DNA of 38,251 nucleotides, from positions 1 to 38,251 of IMG/VR virus record IMGVR_UViG_3300032820_003990. One strand, 5' to 3'. The DNA is from a virus. Numbering within the stretch: the first letter of the stretch is position 1; the number at the start of each line of letters is the position of its first letter. Positions 5,386 through 33,279 of this stretch are shown piece by piece. The notes under the pieces were generated by a model that was not told the DNA's origin, searched no databases, and was given only the letters and a program-made list of their open reading frames with translations. Position numbers and translations under genes: made by a program.

Positions 5386-5387
5386 AT

Positions 5388-7985: not shown

Positions 7986-8019
7986 GTATGTATAGATCGT
8001 AAAAAGTGAAAGGAATTTT

Positions 8020-9815: not shown

Positions 9816-9817
9816 AA

Positions 9818-11107: not shown

Positions 11108-11126
11108 CAATCTTGTTGTATTCTAG

Positions 11127-11155
11127 TAAACCCACCTTAAGGTGGGTTTATTTTT
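11127..11155 (+). terminator. Strong rho-independent terminator
   Basis: A perfect palindrome from 11127 to 11150 (TAAACCCACC, centre TTAA, then GGTGGGTTTA) is followed by a T-rich tract. The symmetry would allow action in both directions. It ends the P2 transcription unit. Confidence 0.9.
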
Positions 11156-11159
11156 AGCA

Positions 11160-11167
11160 AATAAATA
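11160..11167 (+). promoter_or_regulatory. T4-late-type promoter motif (AATAAATA) at the start codon of the next gene
   Basis: AATAAATA is followed by exactly 5 nt and then the ATG at 11173. In T4 late promoters the TATAAATA box spans about -13 to -6, so the predicted +1 is the A of the ATG. No Shine-Dalgarno is present. Confidence 0.6.
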
Positions 11168-11172
11168 TTAGC

Positions 11173-11433
11173 ATGTTCAATCCGTTCTTAGAAGACCAGT
11201 TAATCGAATTATCAGATGATCAACTTCTTGATAAAATCAATGAAGTAGCAAATAAAGTTTCATCTGCTAGGCGTTCTGGCATGAGTTATACTATGTTATC
11301 TCAATTAGAGACGGTGTATCACCAGCTGAATACTGCATACCAGGACCGGCTAATTAAGAAGAACAGTGAAAACATGGACAGTACATCTTTAGAAATTGGA
11401 CACATTGAAGGAGACGTTACTAATGCCGAATGA
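11173..11433 (+). CDS. Hypothetical helical protein
   Basis: This 86-aa protein is predicted to be largely helical and acidic at its ends. It resembles small conserved proteins of marine T4-like phages of unknown role, from memory only. There is no Shine-Dalgarno; the ATG sits 5 nt after a late-promoter motif, so translation may start on a leaderless transcript. It overlaps the next gene by 11 nt. Confidence 0.7.
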   Translation: MFNPFLEDQLIELSDDQLLDKINEVANKVSSARRSGMSYTMLSQLETVYHQLNTAYQDRLIKKNSENMDSTSLEIGHIEGDVTNAE

Positions 11434-12088
11434 AAATTATGTTATTCAAAATAGTAATTTTGTTATTTACAATTCATCGTTTTTAGCAACACGAGTAATT
11501 AGTGATTATATAGATCCGTGCGAGTTTAAAATTGAAATTGGTTTTCAATTTGGTGTAAATGAAGTTAGTACAAATATGGATCAAACTGTTGCATATAATA
11601 AATTAGAATTTCTCATTGATAATGTGCTTGATAAGAGTATCTTTGTTAGTAGTGGTAATGGGTTTTGGAACGAAGTTGCTGATAAAGAAACCCGAAATAA
11701 TTTTTTAGTTTTACCTGGTGAACCATATGATGATCTTGTAACAAAAGCATTATATTACAAAATACAAGCAATTTCGTTTCCTGCATTTATGCTAGTTGAT
11801 ATGTCTGTTTGGTCAACAAGTACAAGATTAAAATTTAATTTTGTAGGTGAGGAAAAATGCACACTTCCAGGTATTGAACAATGGTTAGGCGAGTTAACAT
11901 ATCATGATCAACCTTGGTGGCATAGGGATGATTGCGATACTAGAGATGAAATCCCACCAAACAAAAAAGCACTTGACAACCCACCGAAGAATAGTGTAAA
12001 CTTTAACATAGTTTATGAGTTATTAAATAGTCAAGATCCTGGTGAGGTTGTTGAATTTAAGAATTTTAAGCCAACTTTAGTTAAATGA
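11423..12088 (+). CDS. Hypothetical phage protein
   Basis: This 221-aa protein is not recognised. It appears mainly beta-rich with a Trp/His/Asp-rich segment near residues 160-180 (Q-P-W-W-H-R-D-D-C-D). The ATG at 11423 is chosen because AAGGAG lies about 10 nt before it; an upstream TTG start is less likely. It overlaps the previous gene by 11 nt and the next by an ATGA. No membrane or secretion signal is seen. Confidence 0.75.
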   Translation: MPNENYVIQNSNFVIYNSSFLATRVISDYIDPCEFKIEIGFQFGVNEVSTNMDQTVAYNKLEFLIDNVLDKSIFVSSGNGFWNEVADKETRNNFLVLPGEPYDDLVTKALYYKIQAISFPAFMLVDMSVWSTSTRLKFNFVGEEKCTLPGIEQWLGELTYHDQPWWHRDDCDTRDEIPPNKKALDNPPKNSVNFNIVYELLNSQDPGEVVEFKNFKPTLVK

Positions 12089-12612
12089 GAAAAGATAATG
12101 TAGGTCAGGTTGTTTTAGATTCAAATGATTGTGTTGAATTATTATATAATGATGGGTTAAATGATAGTATATTAGTTGATGCTGACATAGACACAGAGTT
12201 ATATGATAAATATACGCATATAATGAATACTGATTGGCCGATATTAAAACAGGCTACCGAAGCAACAAATATTGAGGAATTTGACAAGTTAAATCAGGAA
12301 AATTGGTTTATGCCGAAGGAGTATAAGGACTTAGATATTGTAAGTTACTTGATGGAAAAGGCAAAGAACCAAACTCATACACTTCATTACTTAAGAGCAG
12401 AAGCAGAATTAAAAGTATATGAAAACAGAGGTCTTTTAAATTTGTTACGATTCCTAGTATATTTGGTTGATGTTATGAAAGAACGTAATATTGTTTGGGG
12501 AGTTGGTAGAGGATCAAGTGTAGCCAGTTATGTTTTATATCTTATTGGTATTCATAAAGTAGATAGTATTAAATACGAACTCGATTTTAACGAGTTTTTA
12601 AGTAGGAGATAA
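12085..12612 (+). CDS. DnaE-like (DNA polymerase III alpha) fragment lacking the catalytic aspartates
   Basis: The C-terminal half of this 175-aa protein matches the start of the palm domain of bacterial replicative polymerase DnaE. A helix with R-F-L-V-Y-L-V-D-V is followed by W-G-V-G-R-G-S-S-V-A-S-Y-V-L-Y-L-I-G-I and then Y-E-L-D-F-N-E-F-L-S. In DnaE this is immediately followed by the P-D-F-D-I-D-F motif that holds two catalytic aspartates; here the protein stops after F-L-S-R-R. G-R-G-S is at 141-144. It therefore cannot be a polymerase alone. It may bind nucleotides or DNA, or interact with the host replisome. The first 80 residues are unlike DnaE. It overlaps the previous gene by ATGA. 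Confidence 0.72.
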   Translation: MRKDNVGQVVLDSNDCVELLYNDGLNDSILVDADIDTELYDKYTHIMNTDWPILKQATEATNIEEFDKLNQENWFMPKEYKDLDIVSYLMEKAKNQTHTLHYLRAEAELKVYENRGLLNLLRFLVYLVDVMKERNIVWGVGRGSSVASYVLYLIGIHKVDSIKYELDFNEFLSRR

Positions 12613-12614
12613 AA

Positions 12615-13061
12615 ATGGTAACAAGAAAAACAGCATCCGGAAACGATATAGATATGGAAGCATTGATGGTTGAAAATGAAGAAGTTATTGCTGTAGGTAA
12701 TACACGAATGAATGCCCGCGGTGATACACTCGATTCAAAAGGAAATGTTATTCAAACTGTGCAGGAAACTGCAACAGCATATTATAAAGAGAATCCAAAT
12801 GCAGTAATAACACAGAGTACAAAAGAAGAGTTAGGTGTAACTCAACAAAGTACCCTGCGTCCAGATCAATTGGATCCCAATGCATCAGTTGCTAAACAAG
12901 AATTTGATGATTGGGTTGACCCAGAAAATTCAGTTGAAACACCAACAGGAAAAGTAACTAAAGAAGAAGACCGCGTTGTAGCCTCAGGAGGTGCAAAAAC
13001 AATGAAGAAAGCACAGCCTAAGGCAAAAAAGAGTATTGACGACATCTATCAAGGTGCGTAA
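12615..13061 (+). CDS. Hypothetical protein, low complexity
   Basis: This 148-aa protein is acidic and Thr/Glu/Asn-rich, with a short Lys-rich tail (K-K-A-Q-P-K-A-K-K-S) and the segment N-T-R-M-N-A-R-G-D near residue 33. It looks partly disordered. I do not recognise it beyond a general resemblance to hypothetical proteins of marine T4-like phages. An AGGAG site precedes the ATG, and it lies 2 nt after the DnaE-like gene. Confidence 0.75.
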   Translation: MVTRKTASGNDIDMEALMVENEEVIAVGNTRMNARGDTLDSKGNVIQTVQETATAYYKENPNAVITQSTKEELGVTQQSTLRPDQLDPNASVAKQEFDDWVDPENSVETPTGKVTKEEDRVVASGGAKTMKKAQPKAKKSIDDIYQGA

Positions 13062-13072
13062 GGAAAATTAGA

Positions 13073-13378
13073 ATGAGAATTCGTGCAACACGTGAAACTA
13101 TTTTAGCAAAGACTATGGAGAGGGGCGAACGTAAATCGGCGGGCGGTATTGTTATACCAGATGATAATGGAACAGATTCTGGTATACGCCCTCGCTGGTG
13201 TCAAGTCTATGATGTTGGAGTTGAAAGTGAATTTAAAGATGATATTAGGTCAGGTGACTGGATTTTAGTTGCTCACGGCAGATGGACAAATGGCGTTGAT
13301 GTTGATGGAGAAACTATTTGGAAAATAGATCCAGATGGTATTTTATTACAAAGTGACGAAGAGCCGGATGGGGTTTAG
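13073..13378 (+). CDS. groES: GroES-like co-chaperonin (Cpn10; analogue of T4 gp31)
   Basis: This 101-aa protein has the length and order of a co-chaperonin. It opens with M-R-I-R-A-T-R-E-T-I-L-A-K, followed by the mobile-loop segment K-S-A-G-G-I-V-I-P-D at 21-30, which is the part that binds the GroEL ring. The V-Y-D-V-G-V strand and the G-D-W-I-L-V-A strand follow the Cpn10 pattern. T4-type phages encode such lids (gp31) to fold the major capsid protein with host GroEL, so the same role is probable. AAGGA precedes the ATG. The end overlaps the next gene by 11 nt. Confidence 0.9.
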   Translation: MRIRATRETILAKTMERGERKSAGGIVIPDDNGTDSGIRPRWCQVYDVGVESEFKDDIRSGDWILVAHGRWTNGVDVDGETIWKIDPDGILLQSDEEPDGV

Positions 13379-13619
13379 AAAAACATTTAATGTAGACAGC
13401 CTATCAAACAGATCACCACATAAAATTCCAGTGCAGGAAGGAGGTGCCCTTAATGCAAACTATAGACAAAGTGAAGCACTTGCTGTATTATGTAATAAGT
13501 TAGGGCAACAAGGACTGGAATATGGTAAAGATTTTTATTGGGATGATACCGGATATGATGGTATCACTTTAACCTTTAACCAGAAAGAAGATATTTTTAT
13601 TACAAAATTAAGATTATGA
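13368..13619 (+). CDS. Hypothetical small protein
   Basis: This 83-aa protein is not recognised. It has a basic N-terminus and a compact alpha/beta pattern (Y-R-Q-S-E-A-L-A-V-L-C-N-K-L) ending in L-R-L. The start at 13368 overlaps the groES-like gene by 11 nt; upstream in-frame codons lie deeper inside that gene. It is joined to the next small gene by ATGA. Confidence 0.65.
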   Translation: MGFRKTFNVDSLSNRSPHKIPVQEGGALNANYRQSEALAVLCNKLGQQGLEYGKDFYWDDTGYDGITLTFNQKEDIFITKLRL

Positions 13620-13792
13620 AATTACCAGAAATAAAATCACCATCAGGATTAACAACTGCTGGCGCCACAGGTATTGTGCTTATGGTGTTGCATATCCTTG
13701 GACATCTAGAAGGATGGGCATGGCCTATTCTTTATGTATTATTAATTATAACTGGCATTGGCCAAGAAAATAAAAAAGTAAAAACTGAATGA
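13616..13792 (+). CDS. 58-aa membrane protein with two hydrophobic segments
   Basis: This short gene encodes 58 residues. Two hydrophobic segments (about 12-30 and 36-49) are separated by a turn with H-L-E-G-W, and the C-terminus is basic (N-K-K-V-K-T-E). The start overlaps the previous stop by ATGA and its own stop overlaps the clamp-loader start by ATGA, so it is fully embedded in the operon. Size and topology would fit a small holin-like or other inner-membrane protein, but no family motif was identified and no lysis gene is adjacent. Confidence 0.7.
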   Translation: MKLPEIKSPSGLTTAGATGIVLMVLHILGHLEGWAWPILYVLLIITGIGQENKKVKTE

Positions 13793-14718
13793 AAGAACTG
13801 TGGGTCGAAAAGTATAGGCCTAAGACACTTGCTGAATATGTATTTCGTGATGATGTGCAGAAAGGGCAAGTTCAGTCTTGGGTCGAGAGCAATGCAATCC
13901 CGCATTTATTGTTTAGTGGCGGGCCTGGTGTAGGTAAGACAACACTTGCAAAGGTCTTGTTACATGAGATAGATGCTGATTGGGGAGATGTGTTAGAGAT
14001 TAATGCTTCGCGTGAAAGAGGCATTGATACTATAAGAGATAAGATTACTAATTTCTGTAGCACATTACCGTTTGGTCCATTTAAGTATATTATACTTGAT
14101 GAGGCAGACTACACTACAGAAGCCGCACAGGCATCGTTACGTGGTGTAATGGAACAGTATGCAAGTTCTGTTAGATTTATTTTAACTTGCAATTATCCTC
14201 ATAGAATTATTCCAGCAATACATTCTCGTTGTCAAGGGTTTCATATTGAACATCTCGATGAAACAAATTTTATGGTAAGGTTGGGTGAAATTTTAGTTGC
14301 AGAGGAAGTAGAATTTGGAATACCAACTTTAGAATTGTATGTTAAGGCTACATATCCTGATTTGCGGAAGTGTATTAACTTATGTCAGATGAATAGCCAA
14401 ACTGGGCAATTGATAGAACCACATCGAAGTGAAAGCAGTGGCCCTGATTATCGTGTTGAGATGGTAAAGTTATTTCAACAAGGAAAAATAACTGAAGCAC
14501 GAAAGTTAGTATGCGAGAAGGCAAGTCCTGCAGAGTATGAAGATATTTTTAAATTTTTATATCGTAATTTGGATTATTGGAATAGCACAAAAGAAGGGCA
14601 AGACGAAGCAATATTAATTATTAGAGATAGTTTAGTAAAGCATACAACTTGTGCAGATCCAGAGATAAATCTTGCCGCTTGTTTGGTACAGTTGGATATG
14701 TTGCGTAAAGGTTCATAA
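13789..14718 (+). CDS. 44: Sliding clamp loader ATPase subunit (T4 gp44/RFC family)
   Basis: This 309-aa AAA+ protein matches the clamp loader large subunit that opens and loads the sliding clamp onto primed DNA. The N-terminal L-W-V-E-K-Y-R-P-K-T is the RFC-family signature. Walker A is G-G-P-G-V-G-K-T-T at 44-52, Walker B is I-L-D-E-A-D at 102-107, and the SRC arginine-finger motif is at 146-148. T4 gp44 is 319 aa, so this is full length. In T4 it works with gp62 and the gp45 clamp; neither is evident in this window. It follows the 58-aa membrane gene with an ATGA overlap. Confidence 0.93.
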   Translation: MKELWVEKYRPKTLAEYVFRDDVQKGQVQSWVESNAIPHLLFSGGPGVGKTTLAKVLLHEIDADWGDVLEINASRERGIDTIRDKITNFCSTLPFGPFKYIILDEADYTTEAAQASLRGVMEQYASSVRFILTCNYPHRIIPAIHSRCQGFHIEHLDETNFMVRLGEILVAEEVEFGIPTLELYVKATYPDLRKCINLCQMNSQTGQLIEPHRSESSGPDYRVEMVKLFQQGKITEARKLVCEKASPAEYEDIFKFLYRNLDYWNSTKEGQDEAILIIRDSLVKHTTCADPEINLAACLVQLDMLRKGS

Positions 14719-14721
14719 ATA
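14714..14721 (+). promoter_or_regulatory. T4-late-type promoter motif (CATAAATA)
   Basis: The motif overlaps the clamp-loader stop codon. The next gene begins 17 nt after the motif and has its own CGAGG ribosome site, so the transcript would have a short leader. Confidence 0.55.
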
Positions 14722-14738
14722 CTGTTCGAGGTATAATA

Positions 14739-15119
14739 ATGACAGACTTTAAGAAAATGAACAAAGCACAGTTGGAAGAGTATGGTCGTTCAGTTGGGAT
14801 AGAGCTAGATCGTCGTTTAAAGAAAGACACTCTAATTCAACAGTTAATTGAGTTTGAAACACCACCTGATGTGGTTTCGTCAGTTACAACTCGCCCTGAT
14901 CGCGTAAGTGCAACTCCAATTCCGGCAGATCTTCAAGCAATAAAGAGTTTTCTTGATTCGTTGCCAGAGTATACTGGTGAGAACAATGGAGCATTAAGTT
15001 CGATAATCATGAAAAAACTTAATCTGTTTTCAGGGCACAAAGTTCAATTTGGTCCTGATGAGAAAGGTTATCGTATAATTGTTAAAGGTCCAGATGTAAA
15101 TAATACATATAGACTTTGA
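14739..15119 (+). CDS. Hypothetical protein with SAP/HeH-like N-terminal helices
   Basis: The first ~40 residues of this 126-aa protein (M-N-K-A-Q-L-E-E-Y-G-R-S-V-G-I-E-L-D-R-R-L-K-K-D-T-L) look like a SAP/HeH-type helix-extended-loop-helix, small folds often used to bind nucleic acid. A Pro/Thr-rich linker follows, then an unrecognised C-terminal domain. A GAGG site and a late-promoter motif precede it. Function unknown. Confidence 0.75.
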   Translation: MTDFKKMNKAQLEEYGRSVGIELDRRLKKDTLIQQLIEFETPPDVVSSVTTRPDRVSATPIPADLQAIKSFLDSLPEYTGENNGALSSIIMKKLNLFSGHKVQFGPDEKGYRIIVKGPDVNNTYRL

Positions 15120-15128
15120 TAATGATTA

Positions 15129-15767
15129 ATGAAATCCTTAGAACGTAATGCCGTACATACATATAGCAATCGACAATTAATGAAATCTAAGAAGATTATA
15201 TTAACTGATGTTGATGGCGTACTACTTGACTGGGAGTATGCTTTTCATGTTTGGATGGAACAGCATGGGCATAATCCAGTAGATGGGTATAGATTAAAGT
15301 ATAATATTGGTGCTCGGTTTGGTATTAGAAAAGATTTAGGCCGGCGTTTAATAAATATTTTTAATGAAAGTGCGTCAATAGGGTTTTTACCTCCCTTACG
15401 AGATTCAATGTATTATGTGCGTAAATTACATGAGCAACATGGGTATGTATTTCATGCAATTACTTCATTAAGTACAAACCCTCATGCAGTTAAGTTAAGA
15501 GAACAGAATTTAGCAAAGTTATTTGGTGGTAGTGTATTTGAAAAAGTTACTTGTTTAGATACTGGTGCTGATAAAGATGATGCATTACAAAAGTACAAAA
15601 ATACAAATTGTTTATGGATTGAGGATAAAATTGCTAATGCTGAAGTAGGTCTTAATGTAGGGTTACGCAGTATTATTATGGAACATGGGCATAATATGCA
15701 TTATGAAGGCGAAGCATCCCTTGTAAAGAACTGGAAAGAAATTTACAATTTAATTATTAAACGATAA
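15129..15767 (+). CDS. HAD-family hydrolase/phosphatase
   Basis: This 212-aa protein has the haloacid-dehalogenase fold signature. D27-V-D29-G in I-I-L-T-D-V-D-G-V-L provides the nucleophile and acid, and T in A-I-T-S-L-S fits motif II. A W-I-E-D-K strand followed by N-A-E fits the metal-binding acidic motif near the C-terminus. A phosphatase acting on a nucleotide or on polynucleotide ends is plausible, because similar proteins are common in T4-like phages, but the substrate is not visible. An alternative ATG at 15180 begins just before the first beta-strand. Neither start has a good ribosome site, so the first 17 residues are uncertain. The stop codon is part of a late-promoter motif. Confidence 0.82.
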   Translation: MKSLERNAVHTYSNRQLMKSKKIILTDVDGVLLDWEYAFHVWMEQHGHNPVDGYRLKYNIGARFGIRKDLGRRLINIFNESASIGFLPPLRDSMYYVRKLHEQHGYVFHAITSLSTNPHAVKLREQNLAKLFGGSVFEKVTCLDTGADKDDALQKYKNTNCLWIEDKIANAEVGLNVGLRSIIMEHGHNMHYEGEASLVKNWKEIYNLIIKR

Positions 15768-15770
15768 ATA
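15763..15770 (+). promoter_or_regulatory. T4-late-type promoter motif (GATAAATA) overlapping a stop codon
   Basis: The TAA stop of the HAD gene is part of the motif. Five nucleotides follow before the ATG at 15776, placing the predicted +1 on the start codon. There is no Shine-Dalgarno. The sequence GATAAATA-N5-ATGGC is the same arrangement as at 24474. Confidence 0.65.
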
Positions 15771-15775
15771 TTACT

Positions 15776-16357
15776 ATGGCATTAGACAATACTTTTCTTC
15801 GAGACGCAGTTGAGAATGTTAACCGTATTAACGGTAACGAAACACTGCTTGACATGTTACTAGAATTTGAGAAAGTTCTAGATGACGTTGGCGTTTACGC
15901 ATATAAAAATTGGATGCTCGGTGAAGTAGTTGAAGGACCATTACTAGAAAGATATTGGTTTAATGTAACACTTATGTATCCTCGCAAGGAAATGCCCGAT
16001 CCAGATGCAATGCGCCGTTTGGACAAGTATGGGTGTAAAGTTGAATATGTAAAGGAACAAGTTGAAATTCCAGTAAAAGTTACAGGTCCTCAAGATTTAA
16101 AAGACCTTAAAACAAAAGAGCCAAAGATGGAATCAAAAGATGTTTGGCTTGTAAAAATCGAAATGCCTCGAAGATTCTTAGAAAATTTTGATGATCGTAG
16201 TTTAGAAGTTGCTGGTGAAAAACTTGATATTGAAGCACTTAATAAAGCAACTGATGAAGGACTTGATGATCAAAGTGAAGCTAAACAACAAGGACAAGAT
16301 ATCAATGCACCAGAACCAGCAGAAGCAATCCCGCCAGCCGGCCCACCGCCAGCTTAA
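15776..16357 (+). CDS. Hypothetical phage protein with acidic, Pro-rich tail
   Basis: This 193-aa protein has a structured N-terminal region (F-L-R-D-A-V-E-N-V-N-R-I-N-G-N-E-T-L-L-D-M-L) and a disordered C-terminus rich in Gln, Glu and Pro ending in P-P-A-G-P-P-P-A. It resembles conserved proteins of marine T4-like phages with no known function, from memory only. The start follows a late-promoter motif by 5 nt without a ribosome site, suggesting a leaderless late message. The downstream gene is open in another frame for 149 nt inside this one. Confidence 0.78.
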   Translation: MALDNTFLRDAVENVNRINGNETLLDMLLEFEKVLDDVGVYAYKNWMLGEVVEGPLLERYWFNVTLMYPRKEMPDPDAMRRLDKYGCKVEYVKEQVEIPVKVTGPQDLKDLKTKEPKMESKDVWLVKIEMPRRFLENFDDRSLEVAGEKLDIEALNKATDEGLDDQSEAKQQGQDINAPEPAEAIPPAGPPPA

Positions 16358-17105
16358 AGAAGGATTACGAGAACATGATCTTAGGGAGACAATCCTTAAG
16401 GAAATTTCTGTTGATCTATTTGATCCAAAAGCTGGAAATGAAGAAGATGTTATTGTTGTAGCATTAGAATGTGTTGATGAAAATCCAGCAAAAGACTTAG
16501 AAGAGTTTATTAGGACTGGTCCAATTGATACAATTGATTCGGATGTAAGTCCAGGCCCAAATGAAGATGGGCATTATATGGTTTTTGCTGAATTTGAAAG
16601 AAACAAAGCATTTCCTGTAAATTTTGTAAAACTTCTTAATGACATTAAACATGTTGTTAAGAATAATGAATGGAAGTTTAAGAGTTATCCAAATAAAAAT
16701 CTTGTGGATTTAACCCCTGAAAGTCTTTTACAGGAAGTAGTTACAGACCCAGTTGAGTATCAAACTGCTCGTGAGATGCATAATAGTCAGAACGCTGCAG
16801 AAAGTTTCCTTACTAAAGACTTATCTCGTAGTCATTATATTTCTGAAGGAAAATTATTTATTAGTACTGGCCAAGGAAGGTATGTTAGTTATTTGATTGA
16901 TTCAGTTGATACTGAGGCTAATATATATGAAGCAAAACAACTTAGAAATAAACCAATAAGATTTGACAATGCTCGAGTTTTGAGGTTGCAAAAGATGTTC
17001 GGTCCGTCGTATAATGTTAATAATGTTGATGAATATATAGTTGTAACAAATAGTCATGGAAATGCAATGGCACTCAAGCCAGTCGCCACCGCACAAGCCG
17101 GTTAG
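16305..17105 (+). CDS. Hypothetical phage protein with uncertain start
   Basis: This protein of up to 266 aa is not recognised. Conserved-looking sequence begins around L-R-E-H-D-L-R-E-T-I-L-K-E-I-S-V-D-L-F-D-P-K, at about nt 16360. No ATG, GTG or TTG lies close before it in frame. The nearest ATG is 16305, with AAGGA about 10 nt before it, inside the previous gene; an ATG at 16209 is also in frame. A non-standard start after the AAGAAGGA at about 16358, or a frameshift from the upstream gene, are alternatives. The second half has a beta-rich pattern. Confidence 0.65.
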   Translation: MHQNQQKQSRQPAHRQLKEGLREHDLRETILKEISVDLFDPKAGNEEDVIVVALECVDENPAKDLEEFIRTGPIDTIDSDVSPGPNEDGHYMVFAEFERNKAFPVNFVKLLNDIKHVVKNNEWKFKSYPNKNLVDLTPESLLQEVVTDPVEYQTAREMHNSQNAAESFLTKDLSRSHYISEGKLFISTGQGRYVSYLIDSVDTEANIYEAKQLRNKPIRFDNARVLRLQKMFGPSYNVNNVDEYIVVTNSHGNAMALKPVATAQAG

Positions 17106-17379
17106 CCGCCGTCAAGTTTATTCGTGGATCAAAGACTGGGAACCAATAAAATTACCAATAGCAATTAAGCTCGATCGCCCTGGCGTTCCGCATAATTGGG
17201 TGGAATGGTGTTCGGAGAATTGTGAAGGAAAATGGAGTTGGTGGTTTGAGGAAGGCACTTGGGATGATATGGCGTATATAGGATTTGAATTAAAAGAAGA
17301 AGCTGTGCTTTTTAAATTAATATTTCCAGAATGGAAAGGTGAGGCCTCATTAGCATTGTGGCCCGTAACGGAGAGGTAA
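17056..17379 (+). CDS. Hypothetical Trp-rich protein
   Basis: This 107-aa protein is not recognised. It is unusually rich in tryptophan (W-V-E-W-C-S-E-N-C-E-G-K-W-S-W-W-F) and has two cysteines. The start at 17056, or 17062 two codons later, lies inside the preceding gene and gives a 50-nt overlap; no later in-frame start exists before the conserved-looking part. It ends directly before the i-spanin gene. Confidence 0.65.
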   Translation: MEMQWHSSQSPPHKPVSRRQVYSWIKDWEPIKLPIAIKLDRPGVPHNWVEWCSENCEGKWSWWFEEGTWDDMAYIGFELKEEAVLFKLIFPEWKGEASLALWPVTER

Positions 17380-17877
17380 ATGTTTTTTGGGAAACTAAAG
17401 CTATACTTTATTTTGCTCTTGCTTTTAGCAGGAATCGTAGGGGTTGCTTATTGGTATTATAATGATACACAAGATAAGTTAAGAGTCTCAGCAGAGAAAA
17501 ATGCTGTGCTAACAATAACAAGAGAGCAACAAGAATTAGCGATTAAAAAACTTAATGATGATGTAGCACGGAGCCAGGCTATTGTAGAGGATTTGCGAGA
17601 ACAGTTTTCTGCACTTCATGATGATTATAATGCGTTAGAGAAAAGGTTTAACAAGCAGAGTGTAAATTTTGGAACACGTGATATCGGAAAGTTAGCAGAA
17701 GCAAAACCAAAGTTAATTGAAAGAGTAATTGATAAAGCAACTAAAAATGTTTTACGATGTTTTGAACTTGCCGCTGGTGCTCAACGCACACATGATGAAA
17801 TAGCGGCTAGAAAGAAATCAGAGACAAATCCAGAATGCCCTGCTTTAGCAAATCCTAATTATGTAGAGGAAGATTAA
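17380..17877 (+). CDS. Rz-like i-spanin (inner-membrane spanin)
   Basis: This 165-aa protein has one N-terminal membrane segment (about 8-27, L-L-L-L-L-A-G-I-V-G-V) and a long periplasmic coiled coil (about 30-95) rich in Glu, Lys and Leu. Near the C-terminus is N-P-E-C-P-A-L-A-N-P, as in many Rz proteins. This is the layout of i-spanins, which join outer-membrane o-spanins and fuse the two membranes in the last step of lysis of Gram-negative hosts. GGAGAGG precedes the ATG. The adjacent lipoprotein gene supports the assignment. Sequence identity to a specific Rz could not be judged. Confidence 0.75.
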   Translation: MFFGKLKLYFILLLLLAGIVGVAYWYYNDTQDKLRVSAEKNAVLTITREQQELAIKKLNDDVARSQAIVEDLREQFSALHDDYNALEKRFNKQSVNFGTRDIGKLAEAKPKLIERVIDKATKNVLRCFELAAGAQRTHDEIAARKKSETNPECPALANPNYVEED

Positions 17878-18330: not shown

Positions 18331-18332
18331 GA

Positions 18333-18360
18333 TTGACAAAAACCCAGGATATTTTATAAT
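18333..18360 (+). promoter_or_regulatory. Sigma70-like promoter P3 directly before dnaJ
   Basis: TTGACA at 18333-18338 and a perfect TATAAT at 18355-18360 are separated by 16 nt, with an ACCCAGGAT spacer core similar to P1 and P2. Only 6 nt separate the -10 box from the dnaJ ATG, so the predicted transcript is leaderless or nearly so. Confidence 0.85.
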
Positions 18361-18366
18361 AGTATA

Positions 18367-19242
18367 ATGCAGGATTACTATGAAACATTGGGTGTAAAAG
18401 CAGAAGCATCCAAGCCAGAGATTACAAAGGCTTTTCGGAAACTAGCCCAAAAGCATCATCCTGACCGAGGTGGTAATGAAACAGAATTTAAAAAAATAAA
18501 TGAGGCATATGACACATTAAAAGATAAGGAAAAGCGAGCAGATTATGATAATACGAGAAACTTTGGTTATCAATCAAACAATCGTACAGGTCAACATGCA
18601 ACAGACCCAGGAGGGTTTCGTGTATACCGAACATCATCTGGGTTTCCATTCGAAGGTGGTCCCGGTGGAGTTGAAGAAATGTTTTCAGCAGTGTTCGGTC
18701 AAGGGTTTGCTCGTCAGGTAGTTAATCGTAATATAACTTTAAATTATGAGATTACTGTTGAAGATGCTTATAAAGGATTGCAACAACAATTAGATATTAA
18801 TTTGCCAAGTGGTGTAGTAAGGAGTGTTAATGTTACAATTCCAGCAGGAATAAAAAGTGGAAGTAAGATAAAGTTTGCTGGGTTAGGAGATAATTCATTT
18901 TCATCAGCACCTGCAGGTGATTTAATTATTGTTGTTAATGTTAAAGAGACTGATGCATGGAGTCGAGAAAAGGACGATTTAATAACTACAATTAAACTTG
19001 ATATGTTTGATGCGGCAACAGGATGTGAGGCAAAAGTAAGACATCTTGATGGTAAAGTTTTAAGTGTAAAAATTCCAGCTGGAACACAGCCTGGTGCAAA
19101 AATTCGTCTTAAAGGAAAAGGCATGGCAAGTATTCGAACAAAAGGGTTCGGCAGTTTAGTTTTAATAGTTAATGTAGAGATTCCAAAAAATTTAACCCAA
19201 AAACAGACAGAGATGTTAAAAGCAATTAAAGACATGCGGTAA
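18367..19242 (+). CDS. dnaJ: DnaJ/CbpA-type J-domain co-chaperone (type II, no zinc finger)
   Basis: This 291-aa protein stimulates the ATPase of Hsp70 (DnaK) and delivers substrates. The J domain occupies 1-65 with the essential H-P-D motif at 31-33. A short Gly/Phe-rich linker (G-F-P-F-E-G-G-P-G-G) follows. The two C-terminal beta-domains come next, with P-A-G-I-K-S-G-S-K-I and P-A-G-T-Q-P-G-A-K-I-R-L-K-G-K-G repeats. The cysteine-rich zinc domain of type I DnaJ is absent, so this is CbpA-like. The start is the canonical first residue of the family, leaving no room for a ribosome site. The stop codon is embedded in the late-promoter motif for the deformylase gene. Confidence 0.93.
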   Translation: MQDYYETLGVKAEASKPEITKAFRKLAQKHHPDRGGNETEFKKINEAYDTLKDKEKRADYDNTRNFGYQSNNRTGQHATDPGGFRVYRTSSGFPFEGGPGGVEEMFSAVFGQGFARQVVNRNITLNYEITVEDAYKGLQQQLDINLPSGVVRSVNVTIPAGIKSGSKIKFAGLGDNSFSSAPAGDLIIVVNVKETDAWSREKDDLITTIKLDMFDAATGCEAKVRHLDGKVLSVKIPAGTQPGAKIRLKGKGMASIRTKGFGSLVLIVNVEIPKNLTQKQTEMLKAIKDMR

Positions 19243-19245
19243 ATA
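19238..19245 (+). promoter_or_regulatory. T4-late-type promoter motif (GGTAAATA) overlapping the dnaJ stop
   Basis: The TAA stop of dnaJ is part of TAAATA. Six nucleotides follow before the deformylase ATG at 19252, so the predicted +1 falls within one or two bases of the start codon. No Shine-Dalgarno is seen. Confidence 0.5.
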
Positions 19246-19251
19246 TTGTTA

Positions 19252-19728
19252 ATGGAACTTGTTTATTATCCAAATGAAGTACTAGCAAACATTTGTGTAG
19301 AAGCTGATTTTGAAAGCATAGATATTGCAAAAGATGCATATCAGATGTTTCGGATAATGAAGGATAACAGTGGTATAGGATTAGCGGCTCCACAGGCAGG
19401 ACTTAATTATAGAATGTTTATTATGGAAGATTTAGTTATTGTTAATCCTACTATTAAAGAAACAAGTAAAGAAGTTATTAAAGAGGTAGAAGGGTGTTTA
19501 AGTTTTCCACAATTATGGATGAATGTTGAAAGAGCAAAAACTATTGTAGCCAATTTCTTTGATGAGAATGGTGTAGAGAAAACAGAGGAGTTTTCAGATA
19601 TATATTCGAGATGTTTCCAACATGAGTTTGATCATTTAGATGGTGTTTGTTTTAACCAGAGAGTATCGAGAATGGTATTTGAGATAGCAAAGAAAAAGAG
19701 GAAAAAGGAACGTGGCAGACAGAATTGA
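19252..19728 (+). CDS. def: Peptide deformylase
   Basis: This 158-aa metalloenzyme removes the formyl group from new proteins. All three family motifs are present: G-I-G-L-A-A-P-Q-A-G at 41-50, E-G-C-L-S-F-P at 80-86 (metal ligand C82), and H-E-F-D-H at 124-128 (ligands H124 and H128, catalytic E125). The C-terminus is short and basic, as in cyanophage deformylases, which are known phage-borne metabolic genes. The ATG at 19252 is preferred to a TTG at 19246 and lies just after a late-promoter motif. It overlaps the clpA-like gene by 17 nt. Confidence 0.95.
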   Translation: MELVYYPNEVLANICVEADFESIDIAKDAYQMFRIMKDNSGIGLAAPQAGLNYRMFIMEDLVIVNPTIKETSKEVIKEVEGCLSFPQLWMNVERAKTIVANFFDENGVEKTEEFSDIYSRCFQHEFDHLDGVCFNQRVSRMVFEIAKKKRKKERGRQN

Positions 19729-21910
19729 AGGATTAGTTGAACGAGCAGTAGATATGGCCGCTGAAAACAGCCACGAGTATGTTACTCTTGAACATTTGTT
19801 GTATAGTTTGTTAGAGGATGACGATGTCGCTGAAGTTATTAAAAAGTGTAATGCTGATATTCCAATTTTAAAAGAAAAAGTTGGGTTACACATTACACAA
19901 GATAAAAAAGATATTGTGTTAGATGATCCAATGGTTAAGCCACAAAAAACACAAAGTCTTGAACGTGTTTTTCATAGGGCATTTACACAAGTAATTTTTA
20001 GTGGGCGTAAAGCATTAGAACCGAAAGATTTGCTTGTTAGTATAATGAGCGAAACTGAGAGTTATGCTCATTATTTCTTGTTATCGAATGGAGTTGATAA
20101 AGAAAAACTTATACAAGTTCTTACAAAGGCACATTCAGACGGGGAAGCAAATGCAATAGAGCAATGGTGTATTAATCTTAATGAAGAAGCAGAACAAAAT
20201 AAAATTGATCCTTTAATTGGTAGAGAAGAAGAAGTTCTTGCATTACAGGAAACATTAGCACGGCGCCGTAAGAACAATGTTATTATTGTTGGTGACGCTG
20301 GTGTTGGTAAAACTGCAATAGCAGAAGGACTTGCTAAAAAGATTGTTGATAAGGAAGTTCCTGCGTTGCTTGCAGATAAAGAAGTGTGGAACATTGACAT
20401 TGGTGCAATGGTTGCTGGCTCGAAGTATAGAGGCGATTTTGAAGAACGCATTAAGTTTGTTCTCGATGAACTTATTAATAAAGGTAATGCAATTATGTTT
20501 ATTGATGAGATACATCAAATACTTGGTGCAGGCTCAGCAGGACAAAGTAACATTGATGCCGCACAATTATTAAAACCCATTTTAAGTAAAGGCGACATAC
20601 AAGTTATAGGTGCAACAACTTACGAAGAATATCGTAAGCATATTGAAAAGGATAGAGCACTTATGAGACGCTTTCATAAGTTAGATTTGCCTGAGCCTAC
20701 TGTTGAGGATGCAAAACAAATACTCGAAGGACTTAAACCATATTATGAAGCATTTCATAACATTGAGTTTGAGGATGGTGTGTTAGATTATATTGTTGAG
20801 ACAAGTGATAGATATATACAGGCACGATTTTTACCTGATAAGGCTATTGATGTAGTTGACATGGCTGGTGCTAAAGTTAGATTGTTTAATCATGATAAAA
20901 AAGAGAAAACAATTATTACTCTCAAAGATGTAGAGAAAGTTATTAGTAAAATGGCAAACTTGCCTATAGAAGTTATTGATAAAGATGAGACAGATATTTA
21001 CGAAGACCTCGAGGATACATTAGGGAAGTTTGTATATGGGCAAGATAAAGCACTTACTACTTTAACAGATGCTATCCTTGTTAATAAAGCAGGATTGCGT
21101 GAACCGGATAAACCAATTGGTAGTTTTCTATTCGTAGGTCCAACTGGTTGTGGTAAAACAGAAACTGCTAAACAACTTGCAGAGGCTCTTGGTGTTAAGT
21201 TATTAAAGTATGATATGTCAGAGTATATAGAAAAGCATTCAGTAAGTAAACTTATTGGTGCACCTCCTGGGTATGTTGGTTATGCAGAAGGTAGTGTAGG
21301 ATCAGGACAACTTATTAATGATGTTGAGAAGGATCCTAATTCTGTGTTGCTACTTGACGAGGTAGAGAAAGCTGCTCCTGAAGTGTTACAAATTTTGTTA
21401 CAAATTATGGATGATGGTAGGTTAACAAGTAGTGATGGTAAGACTGTTAACTTTTATAATACTGTTTTGATTATGACATCCAATCTTGGTGCGTCTGATA
21501 TGGAGAAAAATGCTATTGGCTTTGGATCTTTGGAAAAAACTGGAGTCGATGATGACGCAGTTGAATCATTTTTTGCACCTGAGTTTAGAAACAGGCTTGA
21601 CGCAACAGTTAAGTTTGGTAAGTTAAATGAAGAAATTATTTTAATGATCGTTGATAAAGTTCTCAATGAAACAAATAAACTTCTCGAGAAACGTGGTGTA
21701 AAAATTACTATATTAAAGAGTGCTAAAATGTGGCTTCGAGATAATGGCTATAATGAAACAATGGGTGCAAGGCCCTTAAAGAGATTGTTCGAAGAGAAAA
21801 TTAAGAAGCCATTAAGTAGGGAGATATTGTTTGGCCGCCTGAAAGACGGTGGCAAAGTTCGTGTTTCATTAGAAGGCGACGAATTAAAATTTACATATAA
21901 CGGCGAATAA
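19712..21910 (+). CDS. clpA: ClpA-like AAA+ unfoldase with ClpP-binding loop
   Basis: This 732-aa protein is a two-ring Clp/Hsp100 unfoldase. An N-domain (1-145) is followed by AAA-1 with Walker A G-D-A-G-V-G-K-T at 194-201 and Walker B at 261-266. AAA-2 has Walker A G-P-T-G-C-G-K-T at 476-483 and Walker B at 545-550. The long coiled-coil M domain of ClpB is missing, which places it in the ClpA class (E. coli ClpA is 758 aa). I-G-F at 602-604 sits where ClpA carries its I-G-L/F loop for docking to ClpP, so it may feed proteins to host ClpP. No clpP is seen here. A GTG start at 19712 has an AAGGA site. It ends in a TAATG overlap. Confidence 0.92.
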   Translation: MADRIEGLVERAVDMAAENSHEYVTLEHLLYSLLEDDDVAEVIKKCNADIPILKEKVGLHITQDKKDIVLDDPMVKPQKTQSLERVFHRAFTQVIFSGRKALEPKDLLVSIMSETESYAHYFLLSNGVDKEKLIQVLTKAHSDGEANAIEQWCINLNEEAEQNKIDPLIGREEEVLALQETLARRRKNNVIIVGDAGVGKTAIAEGLAKKIVDKEVPALLADKEVWNIDIGAMVAGSKYRGDFEERIKFVLDELINKGNAIMFIDEIHQILGAGSAGQSNIDAAQLLKPILSKGDIQVIGATTYEEYRKHIEKDRALMRRFHKLDLPEPTVEDAKQILEGLKPYYEAFHNIEFEDGVLDYIVETSDRYIQARFLPDKAIDVVDMAGAKVRLFNHDKKEKTIITLKDVEKVISKMANLPIEVIDKDETDIYEDLEDTLGKFVYGQDKALTTLTDAILVNKAGLREPDKPIGSFLFVGPTGCGKTETAKQLAEALGVKLLKYDMSEYIEKHSVSKLIGAPPGYVGYAEGSVGSGQLINDVEKDPNSVLLLDEVEKAAPEVLQILLQIMDDGRLTSSDGKTVNFYNTVLIMTSNLGASDMEKNAIGFGSLEKTGVDDDAVESFFAPEFRNRLDATVKFGKLNEEIILMIVDKVLNETNKLLEKRGVKITILKSAKMWLRDNGYNETMGARPLKRLFEEKIKKPLSREILFGRLKDGGKVRVSLEGDELKFTYNGE

Positions 21911-22764
21911 TGCTTGTAACATTAAACTTAAAAGGATTGTATCCTAATGTGGCCGGCGCGGTAGTTCCGGTACATAAATTATATTTTCAAAATTTCCCTA
22001 CGGGTGGTTTTGTATTTAAAGTTAATTTTCAAGTACGATCAATGTATGATACAATGTATGGCGCCTCTGCATGTGATGATGCTGAAGCAAAAAAATTAGA
22101 TAAAGGATATCATGATATTTCAAAATGGATCCGTAACACGTATAGAACAGACCAAATTCCATTCCCAGGTGACCTTAAAGAGAGACAAAGTTTTCAAACA
22201 CGAACATTGTTTTTAAAACATCCAGACAGATTTGATGAACTATTAGATAAGTTTGGTCATCTTGTTATTTCAGCAGAACGTCCAATTAACCAAACACATT
22301 ATAATATGCTGTTAGATGGTGATCATGTTGTTTTTAGAGAGAACTTGTTTTGGAGGAAGTATAGATACCGTGTAGGGTTTCGTTCTTCACCGACATTTTA
22401 TGATAGTAGCGTGCCCTGGTTAATGGAATTTTTCGAAGATAGATCCCGGAATGATTATAAATTTAATGCCAATTTACAAAGAGCTATTACTGATCAAACG
22501 ACTCATAAGCATTTTCATGCTATTGGTACAAAGTACACACCATTTGGAAATTTTAGGCGTAAGAAACGATATTATTACTATGGACACAATATTTTTGTAA
22601 ATAATAAAGAGGATATTGTAATGATCAAGCTTCGTATGAATGAAGATGTTTTTAAAGTAGAACGCATATTCAGATACGAAGAATTGGGCGATATTGTAAC
22701 AGAGATAGCAGATGGAAATCAGTCAGGTGGGCATCGAACTAATCAAGCAGTTCGAAGGATGTAG
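21910..22764 (+). CDS. Hypothetical phage protein
   Basis: This 284-aa protein is not recognised. It is basic and rich in aromatic residues, with a cluster R-R-K-K-R-Y-Y-Y-Y-G-H near residue 220. It has no membrane or secretion signal. Its start shares a base with the clpA-like stop, so it is co-translated with the unfoldase gene. Its last 53 nt overlap the endolysin gene. Confidence 0.8.
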   Translation: MLVTLNLKGLYPNVAGAVVPVHKLYFQNFPTGGFVFKVNFQVRSMYDTMYGASACDDAEAKKLDKGYHDISKWIRNTYRTDQIPFPGDLKERQSFQTRTLFLKHPDRFDELLDKFGHLVISAERPINQTHYNMLLDGDHVVFRENLFWRKYRYRVGFRSSPTFYDSSVPWLMEFFEDRSRNDYKFNANLQRAITDQTTHKHFHAIGTKYTPFGNFRRKKRYYYYGHNIFVNNKEDIVMIKLRMNEDVFKVERIFRYEELGDIVTEIADGNQSGGHRTNQAVRRM

Positions 22765-23149
22765 GTTAAAAGCATATAAAGATGCAGTAGGTGTTTGGAC
22801 AATTGGGTATGGGCATACTGTTGATGTTAAAGAAGGTATAGAAATATCACAACATCAAGCAGATGTAATACTTCAAGTTGATTTATATGAGTATGAAGAT
22901 TATATAAACAAATATGTTCAAGTATCACTTACACAAAATCAATTTGATGCTTTAGTAAGTTGGGTTTATAATTTGGGTGCTGGTAATTTACAATCAAGCA
23001 CTATGTTACGAGTGCTAAATGAAGGTAAATATAGTGAAGTTCCCTCCCAAATGAAAAGATGGAATAAAGCAGGTGGCAAAGTCTTACGAGGATTAGTTCG
23101 CCGCAGGGAAGCCGAAGCGGATTTATTCAACGATGACTCAAGCAGTTAG
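22712..23149 (+). CDS. Endolysin, GH24 lysozyme family
   Basis: This 145-aa protein is a T4/P21-type muramidase that cuts peptidoglycan. The catalytic triad has the T4 lysozyme spacing: E15 in Q-F-E-G, D24 in A-Y-K-D, and T30 in W-T-I-G-Y-G-H-T. The later A-L-V-S-W-V-Y-N-L-G-A-G and R-G-L-V-R-R-R-E-A-E segments are also typical. There is no signal peptide or SAR membrane anchor, so release probably needs a holin, which was not identified with confidence. The start at 22712 lies inside the previous gene; a GTG five codons later is possible. Confidence 0.92.
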   Translation: MEISQVGIELIKQFEGCRLKAYKDAVGVWTIGYGHTVDVKEGIEISQHQADVILQVDLYEYEDYINKYVQVSLTQNQFDALVSWVYNLGAGNLQSSTMLRVLNEGKYSEVPSQMKRWNKAGGKVLRGLVRRREAEADLFNDDSSS

Positions 23150-23405
23150 TGACCTATTTAAAAAATTTAAAGAACTTGAAGACACTGTAAAAGCAAATGG
23201 TGATCAATGGGATACGGACTATCAAAATGTGTTGGATCGTTTAAAGTCCCTTGATGTAAAACAAGATAGTCTTCGCACAAACATAACACATATTAGTCAG
23301 CGCCTTGCTACAATACATAAAAGGCTTGAAAGAATTGAAAAAGAGATTGGTATTGATGGAAAAAAGAAATCAGATCCACCAATGCCTGAGTACTATGGGT
23401 TATAA
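23133..23405 (+). CDS. Small coiled-coil protein
   Basis: This 90-aa protein is almost entirely predicted helix with heptad-like Leu/Ile spacing (about 5-75) and ends in a Pro-rich tail (P-P-M-P-E-Y-Y-G-L). It overlaps the endolysin gene by 17 nt, and its 3' end overlaps the 3' end of the minus-strand gene by 6 nt. Its function is unknown; a lysis accessory or structural coiled coil is possible. Confidence 0.7.
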   Translation: MTQAVSDLFKKFKELEDTVKANGDQWDTDYQNVLDRLKSLDVKQDSLRTNITHISQRLATIHKRLERIEKEIGIDGKKKSDPPMPEYYGL

Positions 23406-24197
23406 TCTACCAAATGCCCATTGCCGTTCCCAACACCACCAACATTCTTCGCAGTGAACAGTAAAATTACATGAAGCTTCGATTGTTCCTTCGCATGACC
23501 ATGTTACTGGAAGTAGAGAATTTATTAAATTAAATTGTCGGAAAATATCAGCAACAAATCTTTTATCTATTAAGTATAGTGGCCTCATATGTGCTCTGCA
23601 TTCACTTTCAATTTCTTTTTTTACATCGTCGCCCCGTCGATGTTCTTCGCCGTTTGAATACGGTTGTACATCTGCTGGAGGATTAGATGTAAGCCCATCG
23701 AAGAGTACATGCCAAACTTCAGTGTCTTTGTTTTTTTTGTCTCTGTCTTGAAACTCTTGCCATTCAGTTTGATGCGGATCACTTCGAGGAGGATAGTAAA
23801 TTTGATGTGGAAGCATTCTATCAAAGTTAAGTATTTCAGTAACTTTTTGTATAACTGCTGAAGCCTTAACAGGATTCCACGGTCGTTGCCTTCTTACTGA
23901 CATGGGTTGAATATATAAATCTAAATTATGATCTTGTATAGTTTTAGCAAGGAGATATAATAATGAAGTTGAGTCACAACCACCTGAACACCAGATACCT
24001 AATCGTTTTACATTGTTTGTGTGTCTAGTATTTTTTGGAATTTTAATTGTAATAGATTCTGAGTTATCTAAATTATAATATGGTTGTTCAACAAAGTATG
24101 CTGGTTCTGGTTGATTACTAACTAATGTACCAAAATCTTCTGGTGCGTTGTCAGCAAATGTTTCTGATGATAGCACAACTTGTTCAGTTGTTGTCAT
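23400..24197 (-). CDS. queC: QueC-like PP-loop ATPase (7-cyano-7-deazaguanine synthase family)
   Basis: This 265-aa protein is the only minus-strand gene. It has the PP-loop ATP pyrophosphatase motif S-G-G-C-D-S-T at 71-77. Its C-terminus matches QueC: W-S-C followed by C249, C252 and C255 in a CxxCxxCxxR spacing and then a W-A-F close. QueC converts 7-carboxy-7-deazaguanine to preQ0, used for tRNA queuosine or, in some phages, for modified DNA. Residues 130-200 form a larger insertion than usual. No QueD, QueE, FolE or DNA-inserting DpdA is seen in the window. It has its own late-type promoter motif and a GGGAG ribosome site. A different PP-loop reaction remains possible. Confidence 0.7.
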   Translation of the reverse strand: MTTTEQVVLSSETFADNAPEDFGTLVSNQPEPAYFVEQPYYNLDNSESITIKIPKNTRHTNNVKRLGIWCSGGCDSTSLLYLLAKTIQDHNLDLYIQPMSVRRQRPWNPVKASAVIQKVTEILNFDRMLPHQIYYPPRSDPHQTEWQEFQDRDKKNKDTEVWHVLFDGLTSNPPADVQPYSNGEEHRRGDDVKKEIESECRAHMRPLYLIDKRFVADIFRQFNLINSLLPVTWSCEGTIEASCNFTVHCEECWWCWERQWAFGRL

Positions 24198-24226
24198 TTA
24201 ATTTCTCCCGTAAATCATTATGTATG

Positions 24227-24234
24227 TATTTATT
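24227..24234 (-). promoter_or_regulatory. T4-late-type promoter motif (AATAAATA) for the minus-strand gene
   Basis: Read on the minus strand, AATAAATA lies about 30 nt before the start at 24197. A GGGAG ribosome site (24205-24209) lies 7 nt before that ATG, so this transcript would have a short normal leader. Confidence 0.6.
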
Positions 24235-24258
24235 GGATGGTGTAAAAATGTTAAAAAA

Positions 24259-24288
24259 GTTTACAAATCATTTAATTTTTTTGTAAAC
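24259..24288. repeat. Inverted repeat GTTTACA / TGTAAAC
   Basis: Two perfect 7-nt arms (24259-24265 and 24282-24288) flank a 16-nt AT-rich centre, between the two divergent promoter motifs. It could be an operator for a dimeric regulator or an RNA hairpin. Confidence 0.5.
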
Positions 24289-24301
24289 GCCTTAAATAAT
24301 T

Positions 24302-24385
24302 ATGCAGGAAGGCAGTTTTGAATACACTATAACAATAATCTCAAGTGATTCGAAACTTCGCGTTTCTAATATAAAGAAGAGGTAG
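24302..24385 (+). CDS. Possible 27-aa mini-gene
   Basis: An ATG 3 nt after CTTAAATA opens a 27-codon frame (MQEGSFEYTITIISSDSK, ending in I-K-K-R). It has no clear Shine-Dalgarno. The peptide has a plausible beta-strand pattern and might be a small gene or a remnant. Support is weak. Confidence 0.3.
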   Translation: MQEGSFEYTITIISSDSKLRVSNIKKR

Positions 24386-24391
24386 TAATTT

Positions 24392-24433
24392 ATGCTGTTA
24401 GACTGCGTACGGGCAATAGGCCTGATTGTTTAA
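24392..24433 (+). CDS. Possible 13-aa leader peptide before a terminator
   Basis: A short frame (MLLDCVRAIGLIV) has an AGAGGT ribosome site. Its stop codon overlaps the first base of the terminator stem. This geometry is like that of attenuator leader peptides, but the codons show no clear amino-acid bias. Confidence 0.35.
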   Translation: MLLDCVRAIGLIV

Positions 24434-24465
24434 AAGCCCTTCGGCGAAAGTTGGAGGGCTTTTTT
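24432..24465 (+). terminator. Rho-independent terminator with GAAA tetraloop
   Basis: AAAAGCCCT pairs with AGGGCTTTT in a 9-bp stem. The inner CGGC-GAAA-GTTG can add four pairs capped by a GNRA-type loop. Six T residues follow. It separates the minus-strand gene region from the fibre region. Confidence 0.88.
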
Positions 24466-24473
24466 AATGACCT

Positions 24474-24481
24474 GATAAATA
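24474..24481 (+). promoter_or_regulatory. T4-late-type promoter motif (GATAAATA) at the start codon of the next gene
   Basis: GATAAATA is followed by 5 nt and ATGGC at 24487, the same geometry as at 15763. The predicted +1 falls on the start codon, and there is no Shine-Dalgarno. Confidence 0.65.
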
Positions 24482-24486
24482 TAACT

Positions 24487-24864
24487 ATGGCAAGATCAAC
24501 TACAATGATAAGTTCCGCTACAGGAACAAATTTTAACACAACTGGCAGTAAAGTTCGTGCTGATGCTTACTATGGTTATACAGATGGTATGCATACGGTT
24601 GCTTTTTATTTAGAAGACTTTACTGGAAAGATTTTTCTAGAAGCTACATTAGCAACAGAACCAACAGAGGATGATTGGTTTGCAGTTGCTATAAATCCAC
24701 CGAATGAATTTTTGTTGGCTACAGCACACACTGGTGTTATTGCTCGTACTTTTAATGGTAATTTCGTTTATGCACGAATTCGCATTAATCGTGATCATTT
24801 AAGCCCTGCAAACAACGATACGATGCAGTATGGCCAGATCACACAAGTCCTTCTTAATCATTGA
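24487..24864 (+). CDS. Small virion structural protein of the fibre region
   Basis: This 125-aa protein is rich in Thr, Ala and aromatic residues and appears to be an all-beta sandwich. It starts M-A-R-S-T-T-M-I-S-S-A-T-G-T-N. It resembles small structural proteins encoded just before the fibres of marine T4-like phages, from memory. A longer in-frame reading from 24451 would start inside the terminator stem and is rejected. The start follows a late-promoter motif by 5 nt without a ribosome site. Confidence 0.72.
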   Translation: MARSTTMISSATGTNFNTTGSKVRADAYYGYTDGMHTVAFYLEDFTGKIFLEATLATEPTEDDWFAVAINPPNEFLLATAHTGVIARTFNGNFVYARIRINRDHLSPANNDTMQYGQITQVLLNH

Positions 24865-24878
24865 TCACTATTTAATTA

Positions 24879-24886
24879 GATAAATA
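24879..24886 (+). promoter_or_regulatory. T4-late-type promoter motif (GATAAATA) for the giant fibre gene
   Basis: The motif lies 37 nt before the fibre ATG at 24924, which has its own GGGGAT ribosome site. Confidence 0.6.
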
Positions 24887-24923
24887 TCTATAGTTATAAC
24901 TTTAGGTATTTTGGGGATCAAAT

Positions 24924-33277: not shown

Positions 33278-33279
33278 GG

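Follow-up and report, generated by a model that had tools for sequence, protein, structure and literature searches.

TAAATA boxes that lie just upstream of start codons in a marine phage genome fragment and its relatives are very likely T4-type late promoters producing leaderless mRNAs (probability of ∼0.87), where both the 5' ends of the transcripts and how they are translated are inferred. This reading is supported by features that are shown below, namely the box-to-start geometry, the loss of the Shine-Dalgarno (SD) sequence, the preference for AUG, the absence of a −35 element, a statistically located transcription start (+1), the switching of orthologs between two states and the presence of gp55 homologs in large relatives. 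Since the start codon falls at the predicted promoter +1, the messages probably lack a ribosome-binding leader and would be read from their first base. In the proposed mechanism, the TAAATA boxes would most likely be recognised by the RNA polymerase of the host in association with a gp55-type sigma factor from the phage, and RNA would start at about the sixth base after the box. In a short-spaced class, +1 would be the A of the ATG or lie 1–5 nt before it, giving a leaderless or nearly leaderless mRNA whose 5'-terminal AUG would be bound by ribosomes, a 70S-type initiation being inferred as known for leaderless mRNAs. In a long-spaced class, the ATG would stand 16–40 nt after the box, behind an SD sequence. 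In the jumbo clade, as in the HTVC008M-related SAR11 phages, about one third of the late promoters would fall into the first class, and the jumbo phages would also set the ATG at the +1 of sigma70 promoters.

Late boxes and start codons in the window

The window is the whole stretch of DNA analysed here (38,251 bp), corresponding to the entire record IMGVR_UViG_3300032820_003990, a single IMG/VR virus fragment. As judged by gene content and synteny, its source is a marine, jumbo-like phage of the T4 superfamily, with PA5oct, Atu_ph07, Phosso and 121Q as relatives. It encodes a PolIII-alpha-like fragment, a GroES-like protein, a gp44-like clamp loader, DnaJ, peptide deformylase, ClpA, a giant tail fibre and virion proteins including phrog_12928 and phrog_13138. 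The relatives of its ferredoxin are found in alphaproteobacteria including Pelagibacteraceae, which is merely suggestive as a host clue. An Rfam search of the window returned no match, and neither did the protein encoded at 21910-22764 when used as a query for phages carrying it. The relevant features are listed below, d being the number of nucleotides between the TAAATA box and the ATG.

5383..5396, + strand: predicted leaderless start; TAAATA, N5, ATG 5394; IscA-like gene (PF01521)
11125..11152 (limits approximate), + strand: intrinsic-terminator hairpin; fold −18.9 kcal/mol, z −5.4, T-rich tail
11162..11175, + strand: predicted leaderless start; TAAATA 11162-11167, N5, ATG 11173; 86-aa gene (phrog_15348), without SD
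14716..14741, + strand: leadered counterpart; late box, 17 nt with SD cgaggt, ATG 14739
15765..15778, + strand: predicted leaderless start; TAAATA, N5, ATG 15776; virion structural protein (phrog_12928)
18333..18369, + strand: sigma70 promoter with predicted leaderless start; TTGACA 18333, N16, TATAAT 18355-18360, N6, DnaJ ATG 18367
19240..19254, + strand: predicted leaderless or nearly leaderless start; TAAATA, N6, ATG 19252; peptide deformylase (PF01327)
24432..24466 (limits approximate), + strand: terminator hairpin with U-tract, directly 5' of the 24476 box
24476..24489, + strand: predicted leaderless start; TAAATA, N5, ATG 24487; 125-aa gene (phrog_13657, phrog_14467 virion protein)
24881..24926, + strand: leadered counterpart; late box, 37 nt, ATG 24924; 2766-aa tail fibre, SD-led
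33254..33282, + strand: leadered counterpart; late box, 20 nt with SD gagga, ATG 33280

The sequence-only reading had placed an ATG 5 nt after TAAATA at 11173, 15776 and 24487 and 6 nt after it at 19252, all without SD. Both claims held with every coordinate correct, and the box itself sits at the SD position in the short-spaced sites. A more distant motif combined with a ribosome site was confirmed at 14739, 24924 and 33280, while the fourth case put forward, ATG 36911, has its nearest box at 36784, 121 nt away, and is of little informative value. The claim that nearly all the longer gaps after 11,107 contain TAAATA was also verified, except for the sigma70 gap before DnaJ. Two cases had been missed, the TAAATA-N5-ATG at 5394 and the sigma70 arrangement at 18367. 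The hairpin at 11125..11152 is expected to stop transcripts coming from upstream immediately ahead of the 11162 box, which calls for a local promoter there; the region 24400-24475 folds at −28.2 kcal/mol (z −3.3).

These spacings recur in homologous genes of other loci. The ortholog of the 11173 gene in L003 likewise stands at d=5, as do those of 15776 in L003, L046 and L043, many other orthologs of the latter being at d=17–29, mostly with SD. Peptide deformylase orthologs are found at d=6 (L047) and d=8 (L046), and homologs of the 5394 gene at d=5 (L057 and L163) and d=6 (L026). On the leadered side, the 14739 orthologs display d=16–17 with SD.

The window alone proves little, and the decisive statistics are those of the relatives. 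TAAATA, regarded in the sequence-only reading as common by chance in AT-rich DNA, is depleted in the window (40 occurrences versus 68.5 in shuffles). The bare TAAATA-N5-ATG pattern occurs four times for 1.74 expected and was matched in 9 of 100 shuffles; as this is not significant, the analysis was moved to gene starts in relatives. Among called gene starts of the window, two are at d=5 (0.05 expected) and three at d=5–10 (0.39 expected), in a count where the gene caller left out 15776, probably due to overlap, and took ATG 5388 instead of 5394.

Spacing classes and the predicted transcription start

Relatives were represented by 124 loci, of which 91 are non-redundant, and distances were scored from TAAATA to the ATGs of ORFs with 60 codons or more. 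In the 91 loci, the TAAATA-to-ATG distances are bimodal. A sharp peak at d=5 (64 ATGs, versus 16 for d=0–4 together) is followed by a tail up to d=10 (34, 23, 32, 13 and 13 ATGs at d=6, 7, 8, 9 and 10, summing to 115), a sparse zone at d=11–14 (18) and a broad hump from 16 to ∼40. The sparse zone is as expected from a start at base 6, which would leave leaders of 6–9 nt, too long for a leaderless message and too short to accommodate an SD. In the same loci, SD frequency is 0–8% at d=5–10 versus about 65–80% at d=16–24, and start codons at d=5–10 are 179 ATG versus 16 GTG/TTG. At the level of single genomes, with expected counts from dinucleotide shuffles of upstream regions, d=5 genes number 27 in G007 (0.59 expected; none at d=6), 16 in G006 (0.53 expected; eight at d=6), 15 in G011 (0.56 expected; second peak of eight at d=4) and 11 in HTVC008M (0.34 expected). 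Near-complete genomes thus carry 15–27 such genes. The lack of enrichment of the 5-nt spacing would have refuted the initial proposal, which survived with a 27- to 46-fold enrichment per genome.

The position of +1 can be approached independently of the start codon. The T4 late box TATAAATA occupies −13 to −6 (PMC1524935), and +1 is therefore the sixth base after the box. In SD-led promoters of the clade, this sixth base is an A in 60–67% of cases and is preceded by a T in 56–62%. Since the start codon plays no part in these promoters, the A at base 6 locates +1 independently, and the +1 so deduced coincides with the ATG position in the short class, on statistical grounds and without RNA data. 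Within the d=8 class, an A occupies base 6 in 87% of cases, implying a leader of 3 nt. Base 6 is not an A in the d=6 class, which suggests a +1 at base 7, again the A of the ATG. A is not enriched at base 6 in leadered promoters of G011, where +1 may differ. These data support the proposal that the boxes are T4-like late promoters with the A of the ATG as first transcribed base, the transcripts remaining unmapped. They also amend it, as the clade box is mostly (G/A)ATAAATA and not TATAAATA; in the jumbo clade, a G or an A mostly stands in place of the first T of the T4 box, a position known to tolerate variation in T4-like phages (PMC1524935). No −35 element was detected at d=5 sites (TTGAC in 1/105), where information content does not exceed 0.17 bits at any position more than 2 nt upstream of the hexamer.

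Further support is provided by orthologs that switch between the two states. In the 24487 family, eight members (including that of the window) are at d=5 without SD, six are at d=20–24 with SD and none is found in between. For the virion protein, gataaatagttgt is directly followed by ATGACTATA in L043, while L034 displays gataaatagttgt, then aacaggagtttattgtt, then ATGACTATA, the difference being one precise 17-nt SD leader. Across the clade, both states are present in 23 gene families, with an SD in 8/101 short versus 151/192 long members and the same start in 1100 of the 1401 aligned short-long pairs. Such pairs with and without an SD leader are natural experiments on leaderless versus leadered initiation.

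A parallel sigma70 class and rival explanations

A similar geometry was found for sigma70 promoters, which adds to the initial proposal. The promoter of dnaJ in the window is a 12/12 match, and many DnaJ orthologs (36–40% amino acid identity) keep TATAAT ∼6 nt 5' of the ATG. In the clade, promoters combining TTGAC and TATAAT display a sharp peak at d=6 (42 cases, neighbours at most 6), a valley and a hump at ∼20–44. The +1 of sigma70 promoters is normally located 7 bases after TATAAT, and the d=6 peak therefore puts the ATG at +1. A TTGAC −35 element is present in 42/46 TATAAT-N6-ATG sites versus 1/105 box-N5-ATG sites, which defines two distinct promoter classes. Regarding possible host use of such promoters, a search for leaderless sigma70 promoters in alphaproteobacteria gave no match with a strict pattern and no clear excess with a loose one, and raw counts in Pelagibacteraceae did not clearly indicate host leaderless promoters.

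Could the spacing arise otherwise? Chance can be virtually discarded. TAAATA and ATG are frequent in AT-rich DNA and the bare window pattern was not exceptional, as seen above (9/100 shuffles), but shuffles at gene starts in relatives predict 0.3–0.6 cases where 11–27 are observed, and the arrangement is conserved in orthologs. Termination-reinitiation, in which ribosomes would finish the upstream gene at the TAA of the box and resume at the ATG 8 nt further on, without any need for SD or promoter, is highly improbable. In its favour, the TAA of the box is the stop codon of the preceding gene at 5383, 14716, 15765 and 19240. However, the box is an upstream stop in only 2/31 (G007), 5/29 (G006), 2/25 (G011) and 3/16 (HTVC008M) short-spaced genes, and stop overlap occurs in SD-led boxes too. 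Moreover, terminator hairpins separate the upstream gene from the boxes at 11162 and 24476, and many short-spaced genes lie next to a divergent gene or behind a gap of more than 40 nt; these divergent and isolated cases refute reinitiation as a general cause. Neither the (G/A)A 5' of the box nor the A at base 6 in leadered genes is predicted by it.

Compactness would retain the box as a promoter, the 5-nt class being translated from longer transcripts begun at other promoters and its short spacing being a by-product of tight intergenic space. The tandem, operon-like gene order and the many gaps of at most 40 nt would fit with this view, but we consider it just as improbable. Indeed, it predicts neither the edge at d=5, nor the sparse 11–14 zone, nor a near-absence of SD confined to the short class. 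In addition, the T4, 121Q, cyanophage and Melnitz samples are compact yet devoid of the peak, and orthologs change state by gaining or losing an entire SD leader. The late-promoter reading with leaderless messages is therefore preferred. Several points nevertheless run against it: transcript starts are unmapped, gp55 homologs are restricted to part of the records, G011 and the d=6 class deviate at base 6, a clear sign of host leaderless promoters is lacking, some boxes overlap the preceding stop codon, and tandem genes could be expressed by read-through from upstream promoters.

Distribution among phages and implications

Short spacing concerns 225/640 scored late boxes in the jumbo clade and 63/173 in HTVC008M-like loci (∼35%), versus 2/58 in cyanophages, 1/37 in T4, 121Q, Melnitz and phiM12 pooled, and 2/28 in PA5oct, Atu_ph07 and Phosso. 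Fisher tests of both groups against these controls, which are 50-kb stretches or short loci, give p values from 3e-8 to 2e-3; they are only indicative since the records are mutually related. The d=5 peak was not found in the sampled T4, 121Q, Melnitz and cyanophages. The pelagimyophages HTVC008M and Mosig EXVC030M, which infect SAR11, resemble the jumbo clade in having late genes at d=5 (in HTVC008M, these include gp25, gp4, gp2 and the tape measure; Mosig has four such genes in 50 kb). They differ by a box more similar to TATAAATA and by little sigma70 leaderless signal. Late promoters could not be identified in pelagimyophages in an earlier study (PMC7029224).

With the gp55/gp33/gp45-dependent late promoters of T4 (TATAAATA), the clade shares a single box about one turn 5' of +1 without −35, late structural genes downstream and, in large relatives, a gp55-type sigma factor. 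However, a 50-kb sample of the T4 late region contains no box at d=5, one at d=6–10 and 12 at d=16–30, whereas in about one third of the jumbo-clade boxes the ATG coincides with the predicted +1 or follows it by no more than 5 nt. The jumbo phages CBB and GAP32, from a related group, have the same ATAAATA motif 5' of structural genes and a gp55-like sigma (PMC5259590), but the leaderless arrangement is not described in the relevant sections of that work and the related 121Q has no d=5 peak. Leaderless mRNAs are known from lambda cI, mycobacteria and others. The messages predicted here share with them the absence of SD and an AUG at the predicted 5' end but, unlike them, the predicted leaderlessness is here tied to a phage late-promoter class serving many virion and late genes. 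No description of leaderless mRNAs from T4-type late promoters was found in the open-access literature searched and, within that limit, such a class is apparently undescribed.

Homologs of gp55 (phrog_234, E 1e-22 to 1e-24) were detected in 5 of 17 records (G002, G003, G006, G007 and G011), among them every one of the four records that reach 250 kb (G003, G006, G007 and G011). None was found in the other 12, all below 220 kb, nor in the 38-kb window, which is a fragment. A tie to phage-encoded S21, IF3 or IF1 was considered and rejected. Among large records, S21 is present in 4/7, IF1 in 3/7 and IF3 in 0/7, and G007, which has the most d=5 genes, shows none of the three, which leaves no simple correlation.

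In a bolder reading, which could as easily prove wrong as right when its parts are taken jointly, two lineages of the T4 superfamily (the marine jumbo clade and the SAR11 myophages), perhaps independently, added a second late translation mode, with one third of the late promoters and the jumbo-clade sigma70 set, including that of DnaJ, positioned to emit leaderless mRNAs. If true, many late genes would rely on 5'-AUG recognition and may gain when the state of ribosomes or initiation factors shifts late. Leaderless translation on a large scale is predicted during phage infection, and the cultured HTVC008M or Mosig make its testing feasible. Besides, box-N5-ATG offers a sequence rule to call late genes and their starts in ocean phages lacking known late promoters (PMC7029224), for which gene callers expecting an SD may put these start codons in the wrong place.

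Sigma70 promoters and late start sites

The DnaJ gene of the window is preceded by a perfect sigma70 promoter arranged as TATAAT-N6-ATG (18333-18369), and this arrangement with a sigma70 promoter is roughly tenfold enriched in relatives of the phage. On these two grounds, we infer from sequence alone, with transcript ends unmapped, that the leaderless design is not confined to late promoters. Besides the DnaJ promoter, the sole 12/12 sigma70 match in 5000-25000 lies within the stretch 7958-8022, upstream of a Shine-Dalgarno-led gene at 8020.

The two strands of the window carry 40 copies of the late box TAAATA versus 68.5 expected; such a depletion might mean that stray late promoters are avoided, or that TAA is kept out of coding frames. 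The large related phage G011 (357,559 bp) has 8 genes in a second box-to-ATG spacing peak, at d=4, and base 6 of its leadered promoters shows no peak of A, so the start of late transcription in this phage may be shifted by one base.

Translation-initiation genes in jumbo relatives

Ribosomal protein S21 is encoded in the phage records G003, G005, G006 and G011, IF-1 in G001, G002, G011 and Phosso (locus L130), and IF3 in 121Q (locus L134). No simple link was found between their carriage in jumbo relatives and leaderless use.

Other genes of the window

12085-12609, short PolIII-alpha-like fragment (phrog_11127)
within 1-6074, two cysteine-rich ORFs, putatively radical-SAM-like (labelled without a scan)
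within 1-6074, IscA-like gene
within 1-6074, ferredoxin gene

The nearness of the PolIII-alpha-like fragment to GroES-like and clamp-loader genes is conserved in distant jumbo phages. The 1-6074 cluster is metabolic in appearance; the best cellular relatives of its ferredoxin are mostly alphaproteobacteria, Pelagibacteraceae among them.
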